From NCBI RefSeq assembly GCF_029255545.1, contig NZ_JANLJJ010000068.1:105774-139430 (forward strand): DNA of 33,657 nucleotides. Reading direction: 5' to 3'. The DNA is from Ferrovibrio sp. Lineage in GTDB: Bacteria > Pseudomonadota > Alphaproteobacteria > Ferrovibrionales > Ferrovibrionaceae. Within the stretch, counting starts at the first letter, position 1. Each line of letters begins with the position of its first letter. The notes beneath the pieces were generated by a model. That model was not told where the DNA came from and ran no database searches. It saw only the letters and a list, made by a program, of their open reading frames with translations. Both the position numbers and the translations under genes were made by a program. This document shows, one piece after another, positions 6,124-16,668 of the stretch.

Positions 6124-6981
6124 CTATTCCGCGAGAAACTGCGCGACCAGGGCGACCTGCTCAGCCGTATCCAGCGCCGGGGCATGGCCGATGCCGGGGA
6201 TATCGACGCGCCGCGCCTTCGGGCCGCGCCGGGTCATCTCGGCGGCGGTGTCCTCGGCCAGCAGGTCGGACACGGCGCCGCGCAGCAGCAGGGTTTTTGC
6301 CGCGATCTGGTCATAGACCGGCCAGGCATCGCCCGAGGCGCCCGCGCTCTGGCGGCCCAGCACGGCGGCGATCTCGGGGTCGTAATGGGTGGTCAGCCGG
6401 CCATCGGGCAACCGCCGCGCCGAGGTTTCCGCCAAACGGCGCCAGCCTGCATCGGCGGCAATACCGAACGGCGCATAGATGGTGCGGAAATACTGCTCCA
6501 GCTCGGGCAGGCTGGCGAAGCTGGGTGGCGTTCCGGCATAGGAGAGGATGCGCTGCACGGCATTGGGCGCAATCGCCGGCCCGACATCGTTGAGCAGCAG
6601 ATGGGTGATGCGGTCCTTCAGCGCCGTGGCAGCGCAGACCATGCCGATCAGCCCGCCCATCGAGGTACCGATCCAGCGCACGTTCTGCAGCTTCAGCATG
6701 TCGAGCAGCGCCACGGCCTGCCGGACATAGAAGGGCACGGTGTATTCTGTATCCGGCTCAGGACTCCAGGCGCTCAGGCCCCGGCCGATGGTATCGGGCG
6801 CGATCAGGCGGTAACGCCCGGCCAGCGCCGTTGCCAGATATTCGAAATCATGGGCGTTGCGGGCAAAGCCGTGCCACAGGATCACCGCCGGCGCGGCCTC
6901 GCCGCCCCATTCCAGGCAATGGACCGAGCGGCCGAGCAGGTCGTAATAGCGCGAGCGCCCGGTCATGATTTCATGCGTCAT
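6124..6981 (-). CDS. Alpha/beta hydrolase coupled to the ABC importer genes
   Basis: This 285-residue alpha/beta hydrolase has the oxyanion segment ILWHGFARNAHDF, the nucleophile elbow GTSMGG with its serine, a probable acid in RGAVSDLL, and the catalytic histidine in GIGHAPAL. Family members include ester hydrolases, C-C hydrolases and enol-lactonases. The ATG at 6981 forms an ATGA overlap with the stop of livM, so it is translated with the transporter. This suggests it acts on the imported compound or an early intermediate. The native ester or lactone is unknown. A second in-frame ATG, at 6966, is a possible alternative start. Confidence 0.85.
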   Translation of the reverse strand: MTHEIMTGRSRYYDLLGRSVHCLEWGGEAAPAVILWHGFARNAHDFEYLATALAGRYRLIAPDTIGRGLSAWSPEPDTEYTVPFYVRQAVALLDMLKLQNVRWIGTSMGGLIGMVCAATALKDRITHLLLNDVGPAIAPNAVQRILSYAGTPPSFASLPELEQYFRTIYAPFGIAADAGWRRLAETSARRLPDGRLTTHYDPEIAAVLGRQSAGASGDAWPVYDQIAAKTLLLRGAVSDLLAEDTAAEMTRRGPKARRVDIPGIGHAPALDTAEQVALVAQFLAE

Positions 6982-8060
6982 GACTTCATCTGCCGCAGCT
7001 TGCCCACGATGCCAACCGGGAAGAAATAAACGCTGAGCACAAACAGGATGCCAAGCCAGAGCAGCCAGCGGTCGGCATGGAACAGGCCGGGCAGCAGCGG
7101 GATGCCGGCGGCTTCCAGCATGCCGCTGAACTGGCCCATCAGCACCTGCAGGTAATTCTGCGCCAGGATGAAGATGGTGGCGCCCAGCACGGCGCCATAC
7201 AGCGTGCCCATGCCGCCGATCACCACCATCAGCAGGATGTCGATCATAATGGCGAAGCTGAGCGTGGTATCCGGACCGGTATAGCGCAGCCACAGGGCCA
7301 TCAGCACGCCGGCCAGAGTCGCCATCCCGGCCGACAGGCAGTTGGCGATCGAGCGATAAACCACGACGCGGTAGCCCAGCGCCTCGGCGCGGAAATCATT
7401 CTCGCGGATCGCCTGCAGCACGCGACCGAACGGCGAATTCACCACGCGCAGGGCCAGCAGGAACAGGATCAGCGCGGCGAAGAAGATCAGGTAATAGGTC
7501 AGGATGCGGCCGTTGATCATCACGCCCAGCACCGGCTCGTCGAACAGGCGGAAAGCCGGGCGCAGCATTTCCGGAATCCGGTAACTGCGGCCATCCTCGC
7601 CGCCGGTGATCTCGTTGAGCTGCGAGGCCAGGATGGCGAAGGCCGAGGCCACCGCCAGCGTGATCATGGCGAAGAAGATCGCCCGCACGCGCAGGCTGAA
7701 CAGGCCGATCAGCAGGGCCAGCAGCATGGCCAGCACCAGCGCCGCCAGCACGCCGAGGCCAAGCGCGCCCCAGCCGGCATTGAAATTGTACATGGCGATT
7801 GCCACGCCATAACCACCGATGCCATAGAACATCGTATGGGCGAACGAGACGATGCCGGTATAGCCCAGCAACAGGTCATAGCTGGCCACCAGGATGACGA
7901 AGACGCAGATCTTGGCGGCAACGTTCAGCGGCTGGCTGCCCGGGAACAGGAAGGGCGCGAAAGCCAGGCTGACCAGCACGATGACCAGCGCAACCGACAG
8001 CGCCTTCGAGCGCGGATAGTCGCCGGAGAGGATGCTGTGGATGGGATTGTTCGGCAGCAT
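6978..8060 (-). CDS. livM: Branched-chain amino acid-type ABC permease, LivM
   Basis: This 360-residue inner-membrane permease of the HAAT importers belongs to the LivM side of the heterodimer. About nine hydrophobic helices are visible, with the family segments SYDLLLGYTGIVSFAHTMFYGIGGY, RVLQAIRENDFRAEALGYRV (the cytoplasmic coupling loop that contacts the ATPases) and VIGGMGTLYGAVLGA. The start is ATG at 8060 with GGGGAGG 7 bases upstream. The gene follows livH after 14 bases and overlaps the hydrolase start by ATGA. The window also holds the matching LivH, two ATPases and a binding protein, so the importer is complete. Confidence 0.92.
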   Translation of the reverse strand: MLPNNPIHSILSGDYPRSKALSVALVIVLVSLAFAPFLFPGSQPLNVAAKICVFVILVASYDLLLGYTGIVSFAHTMFYGIGGYGVAIAMYNFNAGWGALGLGVLAALVLAMLLALLIGLFSLRVRAIFFAMITLAVASAFAILASQLNEITGGEDGRSYRIPEMLRPAFRLFDEPVLGVMINGRILTYYLIFFAALILFLLALRVVNSPFGRVLQAIRENDFRAEALGYRVVVYRSIANCLSAGMATLAGVLMALWLRYTGPDTTLSFAIMIDILLMVVIGGMGTLYGAVLGATIFILAQNYLQVLMGQFSGMLEAAGIPLLPGLFHADRWLLWLGILFVLSVYFFPVGIVGKLRQMKS

Positions 8061-8074
8061 GACGGCGCCTCCCC

Positions 8075-9094
8075 TTACCGCTTGGCCACGGGATAAAGGC
8101 CCTGCGGCCGCCATAGCAGGATCAGCACCATCAGCAGGATGCTGGAGCCCAGCGCCAGCTTGGGCGCCAGGAAGCCGGTGTAGTTCGCCACCAGAGCCAC
8201 CAGCAGCGCGCCGACGAAGCAGCCGCCGATCGAGCCCAGCCCGCCGATGATGATGACGATGAAGATCAGCACGTTCACCTCCATGCCCATGCCGGCGGTG
8301 AGCGTCTGGCGGTAGAAGGCCCAGAGCACGCCGCCCAGGCCGGCCAGGGCCGAACCGGCGATGAACACGCCGACGAACAGGCGGCGGATCCTGTAGCCCA
8401 GCGCCTCCACCATCTCGGCATTCTCGACGCCGGCGCGGATCAGCAGGCCGATCTTGGTGCGGTTGAGCAGCAGGTGCATCAGGCCGAACACCAGCAGGCC
8501 CAGCACCACGGCGATCACGCGGTATTTCTCCATCGCCGCCTCGCCCACCACGATGGCGCCGCGCAAACCTTCGGGCAGCCGCAGCGGGATCGGGCTGGCG
8601 CCCCAGATCACATGGATCATCTGTTCGGCCACGATCATGCCGCCCATGGTGATCAGGATCTGCTTCAGGTGCTGGCCATAGACCGGGCGGATCACCACCC
8701 GCTCGAAGGCATAGCCCAGCGCGCCGGTCACCAGCATGGCGACCACGATGCAGGCCAGCAGCACGCCGATATTGAGCCAGATATTCGGGCTCTCGACCCA
8801 GCCGGCCAGCGGGCCCAGCACCATCAGGCTGACATAGGCGCCGAACGAGATGAACACGCCATGGCCGAAATTCAGCACGTCCATCAGGCCGAAGACCAGT
8901 GTGAGGCCCGAGGCCATCAGGAAGATCATCATGCCCATGGCCAAAGCCGCGACGGTGAGCGTGACCCAGGTGGAGAAACTGCCCACCAGCGGCAGGGCGG
9001 CGACGGCCAGGATCGGCACCAGCAGGGCCGGCAGCCAGTCGGTCTTCACCTTCGGCAGCGAGACGGTTTCAGTAGTGGCGGCAACAGCGGTCAT
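8075..9094 (-). CDS. livH: Branched-chain amino acid-type ABC permease, LivH
   Basis: This 339-residue permease is the LivH-type partner. It has an N-terminal extension of about 30 residues before the helices. Recognisable segments are ASGLTLVFGLMDVLNFGHG, GLLIRAGVENAEMVEALGYRI (coupling loop) and IIIGGLGSIGGCFVGALLV. It ends in LLWRPQGLYPVAKR, which is typical of the family. The ATG at 9094 overlaps the stop of livF as ATGA, so its translation is tied to the ATPase gene. With LivM it would form the membrane channel for an amino acid, amide or organic acid. Confidence 0.92.
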   Translation of the reverse strand: MTAVAATTETVSLPKVKTDWLPALLVPILAVAALPLVGSFSTWVTLTVAALAMGMMIFLMASGLTLVFGLMDVLNFGHGVFISFGAYVSLMVLGPLAGWVESPNIWLNIGVLLACIVVAMLVTGALGYAFERVVIRPVYGQHLKQILITMGGMIVAEQMIHVIWGASPIPLRLPEGLRGAIVVGEAAMEKYRVIAVVLGLLVFGLMHLLLNRTKIGLLIRAGVENAEMVEALGYRIRRLFVGVFIAGSALAGLGGVLWAFYRQTLTAGMGMEVNVLIFIVIIIGGLGSIGGCFVGALLVALVANYTGFLAPKLALGSSILLMVLILLWRPQGLYPVAKR

Positions 9095-9816
9095 TGATGC
9101 GCGTCCATGCTCAGGCCCAGCAGTTTCTGCTGCAGCGTGGTGTCTTCCGCCAGTTCGGCCATGGCGCCGCGATGCACGACGCGGCCATCGTCCATCACGG
9201 CCACGGAATCGCCCAGCAGCCTGGCGGCCATGAAATTCTGCTCCACCAGCAGGATGGTGGCGCCGGTGGATTTCAGCTCGCGGAAGGCCTGGATCATGTT
9301 CATGATGATGGCCGGCGCGAGACCTTTGGTCGGCTCGTCGATCAGCAGCAATTCGCGCGGCTCCACGATGGCGCGGGCGATCGCCAGCATCTGCTTCTGC
9401 CCACCCGACAGCGTGCCGGCGGCCAGAGACCAGAATTTCTCCAGCGCCGGGAACAGGCCGAAAATCCATTTCAGGCGTTTTGGGTCGATCTCGCCGTTGC
9501 GCGCGGCGAGGATCATGTTCTCGCGCACGGTGAGGTCGGCGAAGATGCCCATATTCTCGGGCACGTAGGCGATGCCTGCCTGGGCGATATCGGGCGTGGA
9601 CAGTTTCGTGATGTCGCGGCCATCGAAATGCACATGGCCTTTTGATGCCTGCCACAGCCCCATGATGGTGCGCAACGTGGTGGTCTTGCCGGCGCCATTG
9701 CGGCCCAGCAGCATGGTGAGCTGGCCACGCGGCACCACGAGGTCGATGCCATGCAGGATGTGATACTGCCCGATATGGGTATGCACGCCGTCCAGGCGCA
9801 GGATCGCGTCCTTCAT
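9091..9816 (-). CDS. livF: ABC transporter ATPase, LivF type
   Basis: This 241-residue nucleotide-binding protein has Walker A GRNGAGKTT at residues 38-46, Q-loop region YVPENMGIFADLTVREN, signature LSGGQKQMLAIARA, and Walker B LLLIDEPTKGLAP followed by the switch histidine region LVEQNF. YVPENMGIFADLTVREN and TKGLAP are LivF hallmarks. It pairs with LivG to drive LivH-LivM. The ATG at 9816 overlaps the livG stop by ATGA. Confidence 0.93.
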   Translation of the reverse strand: MKDAILRLDGVHTHIGQYHILHGIDLVVPRGQLTMLLGRNGAGKTTTLRTIMGLWQASKGHVHFDGRDITKLSTPDIAQAGIAYVPENMGIFADLTVRENMILAARNGEIDPKRLKWIFGLFPALEKFWSLAAGTLSGGQKQMLAIARAIVEPRELLLIDEPTKGLAPAIIMNMIQAFRELKSTGATILLVEQNFMAARLLGDSVAVMDDGRVVHRGAMAELAEDTTLQQKLLGLSMDAHQ

Positions 9817-10607
9817 CGCGCGGCCTCCCCCATCGTCTGACCCGCGGCCTCGGGCGAGATGCCGAGATAGGCCTCCTGCACCACCGGCGAGGCGATCACC
9901 GTGGCCGGCTCGCCATCGGCCACCAGGGTTCCGTTATGCAGCACGATGATGCGGTCGGCCAGCGAGCGCACCACGTCCATCTTGTGCTCGACCAGCAGCA
10001 CGGTCTTGTCGCCGCGCGCCTTGATGCCGTGGATCAGGTCCAGCACGGTGGGCACCTCGTCGACCGACATGCCGGCGGTCGGCTCGTCGAACATGAAGAC
10101 ATCGGGTTCCAGCGCCAGCAGCAGGGCCACTTCCAGCTTACGCTGGTCGCCATGGGGCAAAGCGCCCGCCATGGCATTGCGCTTCTCGAGCAGCTTCACG
10201 GACTCCAGCAGGCTGTCCGCCTTCTCGATCAGGTCGCGGCGATGGCTCCACAGCTGCAGGAGCTGCAATCCCGCGCCGGCGCGGGACTGCACGGCCAGGC
10301 GCACGTTTTCCATCACGGTGAGGTTGGGAAACAGGTTGGTAAGCTGGAAGGCGCGCCCCATGCCGCGCTTGGTGCGCGCCGAGGCCGTCAGGCCGCTGAC
10401 ATCATGGCCGCGCAGCAGCACGCTTCCGGCGGTGGCCTTGAGCTGGCCCGAGATCAGGTTGAAATAGGTGGTCTTGCCGGCGCCATTCGGCCCGACGATG
10501 GCGGTGAGCGTGCCGGGATGGAAGGCGCAGCTGACGGCATTCACGGCGACATGGCCGCCGAAGCGGATCGTCAGGTCGCGGGTTTCGAGGGCGGGCGTGG
10601 CGGGCAT
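9813..10607 (-). CDS. livG: ABC transporter ATPase, LivG type
   Basis: This 264-residue ATPase has Walker A GPNGAGKTT at 39-47, the LivG-type RAFQLTNLFPNLTVMENV, a signature region read as LPHGDQRKLEVALLL (LSYGDQRRLE in many relatives), and Walker B VFMFDEPTAGMS with LVEHKMD. The start is taken as ATG at 10607 because the longer frame to 10661 runs back through the hairpin that follows livK. The ribosome binding site is weak. The LPHGD variant in the signature is unusual but keeps the glycine. It follows livK after 57 bases. Confidence 0.9.
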   Translation of the reverse strand: MPATPALETRDLTIRFGGHVAVNAVSCAFHPGTLTAIVGPNGAGKTTYFNLISGQLKATAGSVLLRGHDVSGLTASARTKRGMGRAFQLTNLFPNLTVMENVRLAVQSRAGAGLQLLQLWSHRRDLIEKADSLLESVKLLEKRNAMAGALPHGDQRKLEVALLLALEPDVFMFDEPTAGMSVDEVPTVLDLIHGIKARGDKTVLLVEHKMDVVRSLADRIIVLHNGTLVADGEPATVIASPVVQEAYLGISPEAAGQTMGEAAR

Positions 10608-10625
10608 CGGACCGGATATGAAAAT

Positions 10626-10652
10626 GGCCGGGACAGACAGGCTGTCCCGGCC
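10626..10652 (-). terminator. Hairpin between livK and livG (partial terminator or mRNA stabiliser)
   Basis: An 11-bp perfect stem, GGCCGGGACAG paired with CTGTCCCGGCC, with a 5-base loop, lies 12 bases after the livK stop. In the transcript it is followed by only four U residues (AUUUUC). This is weak for termination and fits an attenuator or 3' stabiliser that makes binding protein more abundant than the ATPases and permeases, a common arrangement in ABC importer operons. Confidence 0.65.
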
Positions 10653-10664
10653 GGTTTGCAATAA

Positions 10665-11864
10665 TCAGCGCTTGTTGCGGATCGGGATCGGCATGGCCGA
10701 TTCCGGGATCACCTGCACGAGGTCGAGCAGGTCGACATCGCTCTTGCCGTCCTTCTTGACCCGGAAGTGGTACATCTGCTGCATCGCCTGATGGTCGTCC
10801 TTGCGGAAGAACATGGTGCCCTTCGGGGTGTCGAAGGCCATGCCTTCCATGGCGGCGATCAGCTTGTCGGTGTTGCTGCCGCCGGCCTTCTGGATGGCGG
10901 TCAGCGCGGCCGAAGCGGCGGCGAAACCACCGGCGGTGAAGAAGTCAGGCGGGGCGCCGTTGTTGCGCTTCTTGTGTTCGGTCACCAGCCAGTCGTTCAT
11001 CGGGTTCTTCGGGAAGTCGTAGTAGTAATAGATCGCGCCTTCCATGCCCGGATAGGGTTTATAGAGCTTCATCACCGGCAGGATGTTGCCGCCCGGCGCG
11101 ATCTCGATGCCGAAACGCTCCGGCTTCAGGTCGGCGATCTTGGGCAGCGGATGCGGGCCGGCCCAGATGATGGCGATGATCTTCTTGCCCGGCTTGTCCT
11201 TCAGCGCATCGAACAGGCGCTGGGCCGAGGCGGTGAAATCGGTGGTCTGGGTCGGGGCATATTCCTCGAACGCGATCTTGACGTTCGGATGCGACAGGGC
11301 GAGTGCTTCCTTCATCGCCTTGATGCCATCGCGGCCGAAGGCGTAATCCTGCGCCAGGGTCGCGACATGCACTTCGCCGGTTTTGGGGAACGCGGCAGCG
11401 CCGGCATAGGCGTCCTGCATCGAGGAGCGGCCGGTGCGGAAGATATACTTGTTCCACTTCTCGCCGGTGATCGCGTCGGCCACGGCCGGCTCGACGATCA
11501 GCACCTTCTTGTGCTCCTCGGCCACCGGCAGCATGGCCAGCGCGCCGCCCGAGCCCGTCGTGCCGACGGCCAGGTCGACATTGTCGTCGGCATAGGCCTG
11601 CTCGAGCAGCGACTTGGCGAGGTCGGGCTTGAACTGGTCGTCCTTGACGATCACCTGGATCTTGCGGCCCTGCCAGGTCATCGAGCCCTTGGTCAGGTAT
11701 TCCAGACCCATCATGAAGCCGGTCTCGGTCTGCTTGGCATAAGCCTCGAGCGGACCGGTCTTGCTGGCGATCAGGGCGATCTTCAGATCGGCGGCCTGCG
11801 CCGTCATGGCGCTGCCGGCGATCAGGGCGGCGGTCAGGGCCGCCGTCTTCATCACGCGCTGCAT
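10665..11864 (-). CDS. livK: Periplasmic substrate-binding protein of the HAAT importer
   Basis: This 399-residue type I periplasmic binding protein is the receptor of the importer. A signal peptide spans about residues 1-24 (MKTAALTAALIAGSAMTAQA, cleaved before ADLK). The mature part begins KIALIASKTGPLEAYAKQ, then AVGTTGSGGALAMLPVAEEHKK and AVADAITGEKWNKYIFRT. This subgroup is, from my knowledge of the family, often found near genes for aromatic or organic acid breakdown rather than amino acid uptake. The start is ATG at 11864 with AAGGGAGA 6 bases upstream. It is the first gene of the minus-strand operon and divergent from tetR, with candidate operators between them. Confidence 0.9.
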   Translation of the reverse strand: MQRVMKTAALTAALIAGSAMTAQAADLKIALIASKTGPLEAYAKQTETGFMMGLEYLTKGSMTWQGRKIQVIVKDDQFKPDLAKSLLEQAYADDNVDLAVGTTGSGGALAMLPVAEEHKKVLIVEPAVADAITGEKWNKYIFRTGRSSMQDAYAGAAAFPKTGEVHVATLAQDYAFGRDGIKAMKEALALSHPNVKIAFEEYAPTQTTDFTASAQRLFDALKDKPGKKIIAIIWAGPHPLPKIADLKPERFGIEIAPGGNILPVMKLYKPYPGMEGAIYYYYDFPKNPMNDWLVTEHKKRNNGAPPDFFTAGGFAAASAALTAIQKAGGSNTDKLIAAMEGMAFDTPKGTMFFRKDDHQAMQQMYHFRVKKDGKSDVDLLDLVQVIPESAMPIPIRNKR

Positions 11865-12168
11865 TTTGTCTCTCCCTTGCGACGATTGCGGACGGACTGC
11901 GGCGGGATCGCTCCCGCCGGTTATGGCGATGGAGACGCGACTACAGGCGTGCGTTATGCGCGACATCGTGCTCCTCCCTTTCCTGCGGCCCGGGTGGTCC
12001 CGGTGCCGGTGACGGGGCGCCGTCCGCTATGGACGCCCGCCAAACATGACACTTGATTCATGTCTCGACTATTCGTAGCCTTGCGCCATAAGCCCGTCAA
12101 GCTGGATTCTGACGATTTCGGCCGTGGGCGGAGGAAACGACGGATAATCAAAACATGACGGCTGAATC
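11865..12168. promoter_or_regulatory. Divergent control region between livK and tetR
   Basis: This 304-base gap carries no gene. It holds two copies of an ACATGA-N8-TCATGT inverted repeat near its right side. The left half (11870-12040) is GC-rich with no obvious conserved signal. A possible plus-strand promoter is TTGATT at 12053 and TAGCCT at 12076 with a 17-base spacer; it would place the first repeat over the -35 box. I see no convincing livK promoter by eye. Confidence 0.6.
12044..12063. promoter_or_regulatory. Candidate TetR operator, copy 1
   Basis: ACATGA, 8 bases, TCATGT: a perfect 6+6 inverted repeat. The identical half-sites with the identical spacing recur 109 bases downstream. 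The size suits a TetR dimer. The position, about 180 bases upstream of livK and inside the divergent region, suits control of the importer, of tetR, or of both. Confidence 0.65.
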
Positions 12169-12172
12169 ATGT
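12153..12172. promoter_or_regulatory. Candidate TetR operator, copy 2, over the tetR start codon
   Basis: ACATGA, 8 bases, TCATGT; the right half-site includes the tetR ATG at 12169. Binding here would block transcription of tetR and the downstream catabolic genes as a roadblock or by covering the start. That fits negative autoregulation of the five-gene acyl-CoA operon. The spacer differs from copy 1 while the half-sites are identical, as expected of a true operator. Confidence 0.65.
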
Positions 12173-12810
12173 TGAACACCGCCTCGAGAAAACGTGCCCT
12201 GCCCCTGCCGAAGACCGGCCGGGGCGAGATGACCCGCCGCAAGATTCTCGATTCCGCCAAACGCGAGATCGGCCGCCGCGGCTTTGCCGAGGCCTCGATC
12301 AGCACCATCACCGCCGAAGCCGGCGTCGCCCAGGGCACCTTCTACATCTACTTCCGCAGCAAGGAAGACGTGATGCGCGAGCTGGTCCTGCATATGGGCC
12401 GCATGCTGCGCCATCACCTGACCGAGGCCACCGAGGGCGCGAGAGACCGCATCGAGGCTGAGCGGCTGGGCCTGCGCGCCTTTCTCGATTTCGTGCGCCG
12501 CAATCCCGACCTCTACAAGGTGGTCGAGGAATCGCAGTTCGTCGACGAGAAGGTCTACCGCCAGTATTACACCGAATTCGCCAAGTCCTACCGCATCGCC
12601 CTGGCCGCGGCCGAGAAGCGTGGCGAGATCACGCCCGGCGGCACCGAGAATGCCATCGAGGTGCGCGCCTGGATGCTGATGGGCATCGCCGTCTTCCTCG
12701 GCCAGCGCTATGGCCTGTGGGACCCGAAAGCCCCGCTCGACCCCATCGTCGATGTCGCCACCGCCATGCTGGCGCATGGTATGGCAGCCCCGGGCATGGC
12801 GGCACGCTGA
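12169..12810 (+). CDS. TetR/AcrR family transcriptional regulator
   Basis: This 213-residue repressor has a TetR helix-turn-helix at about residues 22-68: RRKILDSAKREIGRRGF, then SISTITAEAGVAQGTFYIYF, the recognition helix, and RSKEDVM. A basic 20-residue tail precedes it. The C-terminal ligand domain (FLDFVRRNPDLYKVVEESQFVDEKVYRQYY) resembles TetR proteins that respond to CoA esters or other small ligands, but the ligand is not predictable. It is the first gene of the plus-strand operon, 2 bases from the crotonase start. Inferred targets are its own operon and the divergent livK operon, through the two inverted repeats. Confidence 0.9.
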   Translation: MLNTASRKRALPLPKTGRGEMTRRKILDSAKREIGRRGFAEASISTITAEAGVAQGTFYIYFRSKEDVMRELVLHMGRMLRHHLTEATEGARDRIEAERLGLRAFLDFVRRNPDLYKVVEESQFVDEKVYRQYYTEFAKSYRIALAAAEKRGEITPGGTENAIEVRAWMLMGIAVFLGQRYGLWDPKAPLDPIVDVATAMLAHGMAAPGMAAR

Positions 12811-12812
12811 CC

Positions 12813-13583
12813 ATGGCCTTCACCCGTCTCGACATTGCGGGCCCGGTGGCCCGGCTGAGCTTCAATCGGCCGGAACGGCATAACAGCCTGGTGCCCGAGC
12901 TGATCGCGGCACTGAAACTCGATCTGGCCCGCCTCGCGATGACGCCTGATCTGCGTGTCCTGGTGCTGCAGGCCGAAGGCCGCAGTTTCTCCACCGGCGG
13001 CGATGTCGGCGGTTTCTTCGCCGTGCCGCGTGGTGAACGTCGCGCTTATGCCGATGGCCTGGTCGGCGGCCTGAACGACTGCATCATGGCCCTGCTCAAC
13101 CTGCCGATCCCGGTGCTCAGCCGCATCCAGGGCCCGGTCACCGGCGGTTCGCTCGGTTTCCTGCTGGCCTGCGACCTTGTCGCGATCACGCCGCGGGCCT
13201 TCATCCAGCCCTACTATACCGAAGTGGGCTTCAGCCCCGATGGCGGTTGGACCGCCCTGCTGCCCGCCCGTATCGGCGATGCGGCGGCCCGCGAAATCCA
13301 GCTGCGCAACCGGCGCGTCAGCGCGGCCGAAGCCGTGCAGCTTGGCCTGGCCACCGCGCTGGTCGAGCCAGAGGCGCTGGACGCCACCATCGACGGCTGG
13401 CTGGCCGAACTGCTCGCCAAGCAACCGGCCGCCATCGCGGCGACAAAAGCCTGCCTGCTGCCAGCGGAGCGTCGCGCCACCATCGTCGCGGCGCTGGAAC
13501 TGGAGAAGCAGTCCTTTCTCGACCAGATCGACAGCGAGGAAGCCCATCATGGCATGGCGCGTTTCCTTGCCGAGTCGGCATAA
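12813..13583 (+). CDS. Crotonase family enoyl-CoA isomerase, PaaG-like
   Basis: This 256-residue crotonase-fold protein has the first oxyanion segment EGRSFSTGGDVGGF near 55-68 and the second QGPVTGGSLGFLLACDL near 106-122. The catalytic region is IQPYYTEVGFSPDGGWTALLP: Tyr takes the place of the first hydratase Glu, and Asp143 in SPDGG matches the catalytic Asp of PaaG-type isomerases. It is therefore more likely an isomerase or ring-oxepin-type enzyme than a hydratase. No strong ribosome binding site precedes the ATG; it probably relies on coupling to tetR 2 bases upstream. It belongs to the acyl-CoA operon with the ligase and MaoC genes. Confidence 0.85.
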   Translation: MAFTRLDIAGPVARLSFNRPERHNSLVPELIAALKLDLARLAMTPDLRVLVLQAEGRSFSTGGDVGGFFAVPRGERRAYADGLVGGLNDCIMALLNLPIPVLSRIQGPVTGGSLGFLLACDLVAITPRAFIQPYYTEVGFSPDGGWTALLPARIGDAAAREIQLRNRRVSAAEAVQLGLATALVEPEALDATIDGWLAELLAKQPAAIAATKACLLPAERRATIVAALELEKQSFLDQIDSEEAHHGMARFLAESA

Positions 13584-13594
13584 CGGGGGAAACC

Positions 13595-15094
<1,500 letters not shown>

Positions 15095-15099
15095 GTGCC

Positions 15100-15471
15100 A
15101 TGACCATCATCAGCCACGACCGCGCCCTGGCCCAGGGCGAATTCGACCTGTTCGCCGCAGTCAGCGGCGACAACAATCCGATCCATGTCGATCCGGATTT
15201 CTCCGCCCGCACCCGCTTCGGCCGCACGGTCAGCCACGGCATGCTGCTCTACACCGTGCTGTGGGGCCTGCTGCAGAAGCAGCATCCCGGCGCGCGGCAG
15301 GTCAGCCAGACCATGATGTTTCCCAATCCGGCCTATGCCGGCGAAACGCTGCGCTTCGAGCTGAGCGAGACGGCCTCCGCCGACAGCCGGCGCAGCTATG
15401 CCACCAGGGTCACCCGCGTCGCCGACGGCGCCGTGGTGCTGGATGGCCAGACGGAGATCGCCCTGCCATGA
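15100..15471 (+). CDS. MaoC-type (R)-enoyl-CoA hydratase, active partner
   Basis: This 123-residue single hot-dog domain has the full MaoC hydratase motif. Asp24 and His29 lie in SGDNNPIHVDPDF, followed by FGRTVSHGML, which closes the active site. It would hydrate a trans-2-enoyl-CoA to the (R)-3-hydroxyacyl-CoA. The start is taken as ATG at 15100; a GTG at 15091 gives a GTGA overlap with the ligase stop and is an alternative. It is followed by a second hot-dog gene in ATGA overlap, and the two probably form a complex. Confidence 0.87.
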   Translation: MTIISHDRALAQGEFDLFAAVSGDNNPIHVDPDFSARTRFGRTVSHGMLLYTVLWGLLQKQHPGARQVSQTMMFPNPAYAGETLRFELSETASADSRRSYATRVTRVADGAVVLDGQTEIALP

Positions 15472-15860
15472 CCGAGACCGCCCTCACCCATAAAGGCATG
15501 CGCGTCGGCGACCACGCCAGCGTCACCCGCAGCTTCTCGGCCAACGACCTGCGCCAATTCCAGTCGCTGGCTGCCCGCGACGGCGCCGCGCTCGACGCCG
15601 TGCCCGAGCCTCTGATCGGCGCGCTGTTTTCCTACCTGCTTGGCGTCGAGCTGCCCGGCTTCGGCACCAATTACCTGAAGCAGGAACTGAATTTCGAGCG
15701 GCCGGCCCCGGTCGGCCAGCCGCTGACGGCAAAAGTCGAGATCACCCGCCTGCGGCCCGACAAGCATCTGGTCGACCTCGCCACCACCTGCACCGATGCC
15801 GCCGGCCATGTGATCTGCCGCGGCCGCGCGCTGGTGCTGGCCCAGGATGTCGGTGCGTAA
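15468..15860 (+). CDS. MaoC-like hot-dog protein lacking the catalytic Asp/His
   Basis: This 130-residue protein has the core of a MaoC hot-dog fold: FSANDLRQFQSLAARDG, LIGALFSYLLGVELPGFGTNYL, and the strand LNFERPAPVGQPLTAKVEI. The Asp-x4-His motif of the active site is absent; the equivalent stretch reads ARDGAALDAVPEP. The ATG overlaps the stop of the active MaoC gene (ATGA), so the two are made together. Such pairs of an active and an inactive hot-dog chain are known from heterodimeric dehydratases of mycobacteria; applying that here is inference. A stand-alone thioesterase role is less likely. Confidence 0.78.
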   Translation: MTETALTHKGMRVGDHASVTRSFSANDLRQFQSLAARDGAALDAVPEPLIGALFSYLLGVELPGFGTNYLKQELNFERPAPVGQPLTAKVEITRLRPDKHLVDLATTCTDAAGHVICRGRALVLAQDVGA

Positions 15861-15870
15861 GGATTCCGCG

Positions 15871-16668
15871 ATGTATGTTGCCGAAAGCGGCCCCGGGAAC
15901 ACGCCAGGCCGGCCGCTGGTTTTCCTGCATGGCTGGGCCGCCCATGGCGGCTATTTCACGCCGCAGCTTGCCGCTTTCTCCGGGCGGCATCGCGTTCTGC
16001 TGCCCGACCTGCCCGGCCATCGCCATTCTCCCGCCACCCCTGCCGACCTGACCATTCCGTATCTGGCCGATCAGTTGCACGTCATGTTCAGGACATACGA
16101 TCTGCACGACGCCGTGCTGATCGGCTGGTCGATGGGCGCCATGGTGGCTTTCGATTACATCGCCCGCTATGGCAGCGCCAGCCTGGCCGGGCTGGTGATC
16201 GAGGACATGACGCCGCGCATCATCAATGACCGCGACTGGCAGTTCGGCATCCGCAACGGCTTTGACGCCGCCCAGAGCGAAACCGCCATGCAGATGATGC
16301 GGGCCGACTGGCCATCCTATGCCCAGAATGCCCTGCCCCGCCTGTTCGCCCGCGACAGCCGGATCGATCCCGCGCTGATGAAATGGCTCGGTGCGGAAAT
16401 GGCCGGCAACGATGGCGACGCCATGGCCGCCCTGTGGGCGTCGATGGCGCAGCAGGATTATCGCTGGCTGCTGCCGCAGCTTGAATTGCCGGTCCTGATC
16501 CTGCATGGCAACGAGAGCCAGCTCTATGAGCCAGCCGTGTGCCAGTGGCTGGCCGCCAATATCAACGGCGCGCGCCGGGTTTGCTTCGACGGCGCCGGCC
16601 ATTCCCCGCATCTGGAAATGCCGGATGCCTATAACCGCGGCCTGTCGGAATTCCTCGAGGCGCTGTAG
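15871..16668 (+). CDS. Alpha/beta hydrolase at the end of the acyl-CoA operon
   Basis: This 265-residue alpha/beta hydrolase has the oxyanion segment VFLHGWAAHGGYF, the nucleophile elbow GWSMGA (Ser), a C-terminal HGNESQLYEP where the acid is expected, and the catalytic histidine in GAGHSPHLEMP. It resembles BioH/carboxylesterase-type proteins. The ATG at 15871 has AAGGA 7 bases upstream; an in-frame ATG at 15847 lies inside the hot-dog gene and is less likely. It ends the plus-strand operon 12 bases from the convergent Crp/Fnr gene. It may release acyl chains as CoA thioesters or open an ester or lactone in the pathway. Confidence 0.85.
   Translation: MYVAESGPGNTPGRPLVFLHGWAAHGGYFTPQLAAFSGRHRVLLPDLPGHRHSPATPADLTIPYLADQLHVMFRTYDLHDAVLIGWSMGAMVAFDYIARYGSASLAGLVIEDMTPRIINDRDWQFGIRNGFDAAQSETAMQMMRADWPSYAQNALPRLFARDSRIDPALMKWLGAEMAGNDGDAMAALWASMAQQDYRWLLPQLELPVLILHGNESQLYEPAVCQWLAANINGARRVCFDGAGHSPHLEMPDAYNRGLSEFLEAL

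Follow-up and report, generated by a model that had tools for sequence, protein, structure and literature searches.

The window, by which we mean the whole 33,657-nucleotide stretch of Ferrovibrio sp. DNA that was analysed, contains two divergent sets of genes. On the minus strand, livK (10665–11864), which encodes a periplasmic binding protein (PF13458; start from conservation), is followed by the ATP-binding protein genes livG (9813–10661, the longest open reading frame, whose start may be later) and livF (9091–9816), and by the permease genes livH (8075–9094) and livM (6978–8060), whose order is kept in the loci compared. After livM comes a gene for an alpha/beta hydrolase (6124–6981, PF00561); the starts of livH, livM and this hydrolase gene were set by eye. 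On the plus strand, tetR (12169–12810) encodes a SaFadR-like regulator of 213 residues and would be the first gene of a catabolic operon whose limits are predicted. It is followed by genes for an enoyl-CoA hydratase-family protein (12813–13583, PF00378), an acyl-CoA ligase (13595–15094, PF00501; start by eye), two short proteins (15100–15471 and 15468–15860) that each match the N-terminal, hydratase-like part of PRK08190, and a second alpha/beta hydrolase (15847–16668, PF00561). We take the two PRK08190-like proteins to have a hotdog/MaoC-type fold. The nearest solved structures to the ligase, 8weu/8wev, carry the names fatty-acyl-CoA synthase and feruloyl-CoA synthetase, and among the cluster proteins searched against NCBIfam none reached a curated cut-off. 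The substrate of the system may be a fatty or aryl carboxylic acid.

The conserved start of livK is at 11864 (MQRVMKTAAL, with GGGAGAG in front), and the longest open reading frame, 10665–11966, is over-extended. Because livK starts at 11864 and not at 11966, the gap between livK and tetR measures 304 bases (11865–12168). The pattern ACATGA-N8-TCATGT has two exact matches here, at 12044–12063 and 12153–12172, with starts 109 bases apart. These are the two perfect 6+6 inverted repeats that an earlier sequence-only reading had pointed out, one in the divergent livK–tetR gap and the other over the tetR start, whose ATG (12169–12171) lies inside the right arm; both are exact. Across the genome (4,110,678 bases; 4.1 Mb), a scan returned the same two places only, where the base composition of the window would predict 0.036 exact matches; the reversed control pattern gave 0 matches. 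A test confined to the window is weak, because with two mismatches allowed 14 of 100 shuffles equalled the two matches, though both real matches are exact. Two palindromic sites between tetR and its predicted divergent target livK are a feature of the TetR/tetA-type dual-operator arrangement.

We designate the two sites as predicted operators, annotated without a strand. O1, on the livK side (12043–12064, core 12044–12063), reads AACATGA-CACTTGAT-TCATGTC and is an exact palindrome in its core; its seventh pair is broken in the window's species, and the arm reads TCATGTT in 9/9 congeneric rows. O2, on the tetR side (12152–12173, core 12153–12172), is a 7+7 palindrome with the arms AACATGA and TCATGTT. 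The spacers of O1 and O2 agree at four of eight positions (C...TGA.), and C-N4-GA is kept at the same three places in 10/10 rows at both sites, which means that the spacer is more than neutral filler. The earlier description of conserved arms with variable spacers thus stands in part: the spacers do differ, but they are not freely variable.

The start of tetR has features of its own. No Shine–Dalgarno-like word (GGAG, AGGA or GAGG) was found in the 20 bases that precede the start codon, and the congeners have another in-frame ATG downstream of it. The two rows from other genera have no ATG within the site, so a start codon there is not general. Leaderless initiation, or initiation masked by the operator (12152–12181), is possible. 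The sequence-only reading had also placed a tetR promoter between the two sites. This claim found no backing and must be regarded as unproved, because a scan of 11850–12200 for sigma-70-like promoters found 0, with 0.1 expected.

The regulator carries an N-terminal TetR_N domain (PF00440, 52.8 bits against a cut-off of 24), the sole match in a Pfam search, which returned no ligand-domain family. Its AlphaFold2 model (mean pLDDT 91.7) comprises nine helices and no strand, and the top fold matches in the PDB are TetR proteins. By sequence, the nearest solved chain is SaFadR (6EL2/6EN8; 1.9e-33, and 7.6e-40 with a profile), and the first seven fold matches are likewise SaFadR chains, with TM-scores of 0.69–0.79 by query length, Bacillus FadR coming next. 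In both sequence and fold, the window's TetR is closer to SaFadR than to other solved TetR proteins. According to PMC6449355, SaFadR (FadRSa of Sulfolobus acidocaldarius; PDB IDs: 6EL2 and 6EN8) is a repressor that is removed from DNA by acyl-CoA; it has four genomic sites, one of them in its own control region, and represses an acyl-CoA degradation cluster. The same source lists Tyr47, Gly48, Leu49, Tyr51 and Phe52 as base-contacting residues, and Arg73, Lys77, Arg86 and Arg132 as contacts to CoA.

For comparison of these positions, the best 80 of at least 534 relatives were taken, a QGTFY pattern being used in picking them. In these 80, the Gly48, Tyr51, Tyr53 and Arg73 columns (SaFadR numbering) are identical in 80/80, and the Arg86 column holds arginine in 75/80. 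The invariance of QGTFY is partly due to selection, since that pattern served to find the relatives. Tyr47 is replaced by Gln and Leu49 by Thr in 80/80, Phe52 gives way to L, I, V or T, and Lys77, Arg132 and Met101 of SaFadR are not kept. Because the nearest solved relative is the acyl-CoA-released SaFadR, we infer by analogy that repression by the window's TetR would be relieved by an acyl-CoA.

Within the family, tetR is present in 12 of 18 genomes (10/10 of the genus and 2/8 of other genera). Each of the nine congeners has a single exact match to the pattern, and 0/8 family members of other genera have one. When the regions upstream of the 12 tetR orthologs were aligned, both sites were found in 12/12. 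The livK-side site reads AACATGACAsTTGATTCATGT within the genus and is exact in 9/9 congeners; the tetR-side site takes a weaker TGAC-N4-GAWTCA form in the aligned rows, with a degenerate right arm in 4/12, and among the family genomes compared its perfect copy is peculiar to the window's species. The two sites are also the best-kept 24-bp stretches of the gap, with a mean identity of 0.95 for O1 and 0.79 for O2, against 0.54 for the remainder; this profile and the matrix used below were built from 10 of the 12 family rows, L020 and L023 being omitted as near duplicates. The motif is therefore present in the orthologous livK–tetR gaps, as the earlier reading had led one to expect.

A model built from sequence only, on 36 chosen sites that included seven tetR-side sites and one of eight livK-side sites from the Roseibium group, was used to scan the window's own genome, the genus and the Roseibium group, with up to 150 candidates scored per genome. 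In the window's genome, it returned the two sites only at E≤10. Across the genus, it found the livK-side site in 10/10 genomes at E≤1 and the tetR-side site as well in 7/10; in G010, G012 and G013 the tetR-side site fell below this cut-off and the livK-side site stood alone. The regulator thus looks like a one-locus regulator in the Ferrovibrio sp. genome. An asymmetric pattern, MTGAC-N4-GATTCAKGTT with up to three mismatches, matched the same genome at 76 places on one strand and 77 on the other, against 8 and 14 for the reversed control. With fewer than two mismatches, it matched O1 and O2 only; nine places follow with two mismatches, and therefore no further regulon member can be named from this pattern. 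An extra weak match (E 0.45–0.47) was seen in two congeners, G007 (L153) and G009 (L152), near 1501 in each locus, at the 5′ end of a DUF4212 open reading frame that adjoins a longer frame resembling a solute symporter by eye; no match of this type occurs in the window's genome at E≤10, with up to 150 candidates scored.

To look beyond the family, we used 20 sites from the window's family to train a symmetric matrix and ran it on 76 held-out loci; L055, L056, L059 and L068 were left out of the 80 relatives' loci, their records being in the training set or nearly so. In 45 of the 76 loci, the 350 bp upstream of tetR hold a site of at least 14 bits, against a mean of 0.25 over 20 shuffle rounds. 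Elsewhere in the held-out loci there were 16 matches in 1.2 Mb, against one in a single shuffle round. Record titles among the 45 positive loci name Trueperaceae, Bacillota or allied genera, Acidimicrobiia, Caldilineaceae and Myxococcales. In 10 of the remaining 31 loci a site is found, but outside the region upstream of tetR, and the other 21 lack any site of at least 14 bits, 12 of these 21 being gammaproteobacterial and without a livK match. The TetR relatives in these twelve gammaproteobacterial loci (L082, L084–L086, L089, L091, L092 and L100–L104) share 42–51% identity and keep the QGTFY helix; neither a 14-bit site nor a livK match was found in any of the twelve.

We also examined a class sample of 289 genomes, in which a tetR ortholog was defined by E≤1e-40 with up to 10 candidates scored per genome. 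Orthologs were found in at least 11 of the 289, and a site of at least 14 bits lies within 150 bp upstream of tetR in 11/11 of those found, including 8/8 from outside the training family. One of these eight (L210) and L064 are a single record; the other seven are not among the 80 relatives.

The operator also travels with livK. In the loci fetched from nine genomes of the Roseibium, Stappia, Tepidamorphus and Breoghania group, livK and tetR do not form a divergent pair. At E≤0.5, with up to 150 candidates scored, the model finds two places in eight of these nine genomes, the first at tetR and the second upstream of livK, and G020 has the tetR site only. The distance from tetR site to livK site in the eight genomes is 9.6–160 kb, so the two sites need not lie close together, and seven of the eight separate livK sites were absent from the model's training set. 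In loci where livK-G-F-H-M, the ligase gene and tetR form one joint order, a site precedes livK in 7/7; these seven belong to the 10 loci whose site lies elsewhere than upstream of tetR. Among three further genomes, the L083 record has one site between livK and tetR, that of L089 has none, and that of L103 has seven, away from tetR. The separate livK sites are the strongest evidence for one regulator over importer and catabolic operon. Given the conservation of the sites, their linkage to tetR in the held-out loci, the livK sites that stand apart and the joint operons, the adjacent TetR very probably controls its own gene as well as the liv importer and the catabolic operon, as the sequence-only reading had predicted.

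These observations can be assembled into a switch in which each promoter would have one operator. A TetR dimer on O1 would block the predicted livK promoter, and a second on O2 would block transcription, or its start, at tetR. One repressor would thereby silence its own gene along with the LIV-type importer and the hydratase/ligase/hydrolase operon; the prediction that TetR occupies the two sites and acts as a repressor on either side has comparative support. When substrate enters, the operon's own ligase would convert it to an acyl-CoA, and the thioester would bind TetR, which would then leave the DNA. We consider this scheme as a whole, with O1 and O2 as TetR operators and with acyl-CoA-relieved repression of importer, catabolic operon and tetR, likely to be correct.

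Other readings of the same repeats must be weighed against this scheme. That the repeats serve a different regulator, or arose by chance, is scarcely credible: similar palindromes do occur away from tetR in other genomes, but a single gap here holds two exact matches where the genome as a whole should yield far fewer than one (0.036), and the linkage to tetR in 45/76 held-out loci and 11/11 class orthologs speaks against it. The possibility that O1 and O2 are joined in a repression loop, through paired TetR dimers or another protein, fares little better and is very improbable. It would fit the spacing in most rows of the genus, where the sites lie 109–113 bp apart (10/12 family rows), but one genus row has 125 bp, and across two-site loci the spacing ranges from 48 bp (a doubtful pair) to 203 bp. 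The mean helical phase, taken over 16 distinct and not fully independent spacings, is about 0.47 turn at 10.5 bp, which would put the two sites on opposite faces of the helix. Moreover, at 9 bits the 49 loci L056–L104 divide into 19 with one site, 18 with two or more and 12 with none, a count in which L056, L059, L068 and (weakly) L074, with its doubtful second site, need care. The loop that the earlier reading had thought possible is thus disfavoured, spacing and phase not being kept and single-site loci being common; and with variable spacing, single-site loci and sites that can be 9.6–160 kb apart, we rejected looping as the reason for conservation.

It is also improbable that TetR controls only itself and its catabolic operon, the livK-side site being distant-acting or spare and the importer otherwise controlled. 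The 304-base gap does exceed the 200-bp rule of thumb given for divergent TetR targets in PMC3511530, and G020 shows that a tetR-side site can stand alone at E≤0.5. Against this, the livK-side site is the better kept of the two, and a site lies upstream of livK both in 8/9 genomes where livK is far from tetR and in all seven joint livK-first operons. Somewhat more room must be left for a reading in which the sites are indeed those of TetR but the protein acts as an activator, or responds to a ligand other than an acyl-CoA, such as a free acid or an amino acid, although we think it unlikely. The absence of the SaFadR contacts Lys77 and Arg132 and the Pfam result, TetR_N alone, would allow it. 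What counts against it is that the nearest relative by sequence and fold is an acyl-CoA-released repressor, that Arg73 (80/80) and Arg86 (75/80) are kept, and that the operon carries its own CoA ligase. Acyl-CoA-relieved repression of importer, operon and tetR therefore remains our preferred reading.

Several described systems resemble this arrangement in part. SaFadR, the nearest solved relative, shares Gly48, Tyr51, Tyr53, Arg73 and mostly Arg86 with the window's TetR and its relatives, but it is archaeal, controls lipase and beta-oxidation genes, recognises a 16-bp motif, and has the residues Lys77 and Arg132 that the window's TetR does not keep; the term ‘ABC transporter’ is absent from the main text of PMC6449355. 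TetR/tetA also pairs a regulator with a divergent target across a gap that holds two palindromic operators, but there an efflux pump, tetracycline and an 81-bp gap are involved (PMC3511530), whereas here the regulator faces an importer and leads a catabolic operon across 304 bases. In AtuR/RdmA, too, a TetR protein represses a catabolic cluster that is divergent from it, and the gap carries two inverted repeats (PMC9973270). We tried the operator of this system as a candidate and rejected it: the AtuR/RdmA repeats AGCAAGCGCTTGG and CCAAGCGCTTGCT given in that source are absent from the gap and from the window, and because the two are reverse complements of one another, a search of the plus strand covers both strands. 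Control here would work as in TetR/tetA and AtuR/RdmA, with a different operator. Bacillus FadR (PDB IDs: 3WHB, 3WHC, 5GP9 and 5GPA), the next best fold match, is also an acyl-CoA-binding TetR, but identity is about 20% and, according to PMC6449355, its ligand enters from the dimer interface, unlike that of SaFadR. The TetR entries FabR, FadP, LiuQ, PsrA and RutR of PMC5343134 were set aside as other regulators, and the word ‘liv’ was not found there. Among the open-licence papers listed, we found no description of this operator or regulon; one elsewhere is possible.

The type of control proposed is ordinary and its mechanism textbook; what is unusual is the breadth of operator conservation. 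A repeat caught by eye has led to a concrete regulon prediction, in which one regulator, through one operator, governs an importer and a catabolic operon. With somewhat less than even confidence, we suggest more generally that the operator AAACATGA-N8-TCATGTTT (core TGA-N8-TCA) has been retained in several phyla by an old acyl-CoA-sensing TetR with an archaeal protein as its nearest solved relative, and that this regulator jointly switches an acyl-CoA ligase and a LIV-type importer. If this is true, the transporters of such clusters would take up fatty or aryl carboxylic acids and not branched-chain amino acids. Because records from several phyla share the operator, and because it is found with livK even where that operon lies elsewhere in the genome, it offers a handle for finding and re-annotating transporters labelled ‘branched-chain amino acid’ whose genes are linked to those of acyl-CoA ligases.

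Sites of similar form also occur away from tetR. A loose symmetric palindrome was tried as a regulon finder and rejected, as it appears in 32/289 class genomes against 10/289 for the reversed control, and 28 of the 32 carry it away from a tetR ortholog. A near-identical palindrome, AACATGAATCAGTATTCATGTT, adjoins an unrelated-looking TetR gene, recognised by eye, in G060 (L205, near 1501), a genome in which up to 10 scored candidates gave no tetR match at E≤1e-40. Solimonas sp. SE-A11 (G028, the L103 record) has seven AACCTGA-N8-TCAGGTT-like places at E≤0.5, with up to 150 candidates scored (L163, L170, L174 and L176–L179), none of them at its tetR relative. Among the neighbours searched in Pfam, there were DUF2306, PH-domain, Sel1, TPR and integrase matches with no acyl-CoA theme, and the sites possibly represent a wider regulon or another regulator. 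In G174 (L183, near 1501), a genome with a tetR ortholog, a 35-bit site lies upstream of genes that resemble 3-oxoacid CoA-transferase subunits by eye, a possible extension of the regulon.
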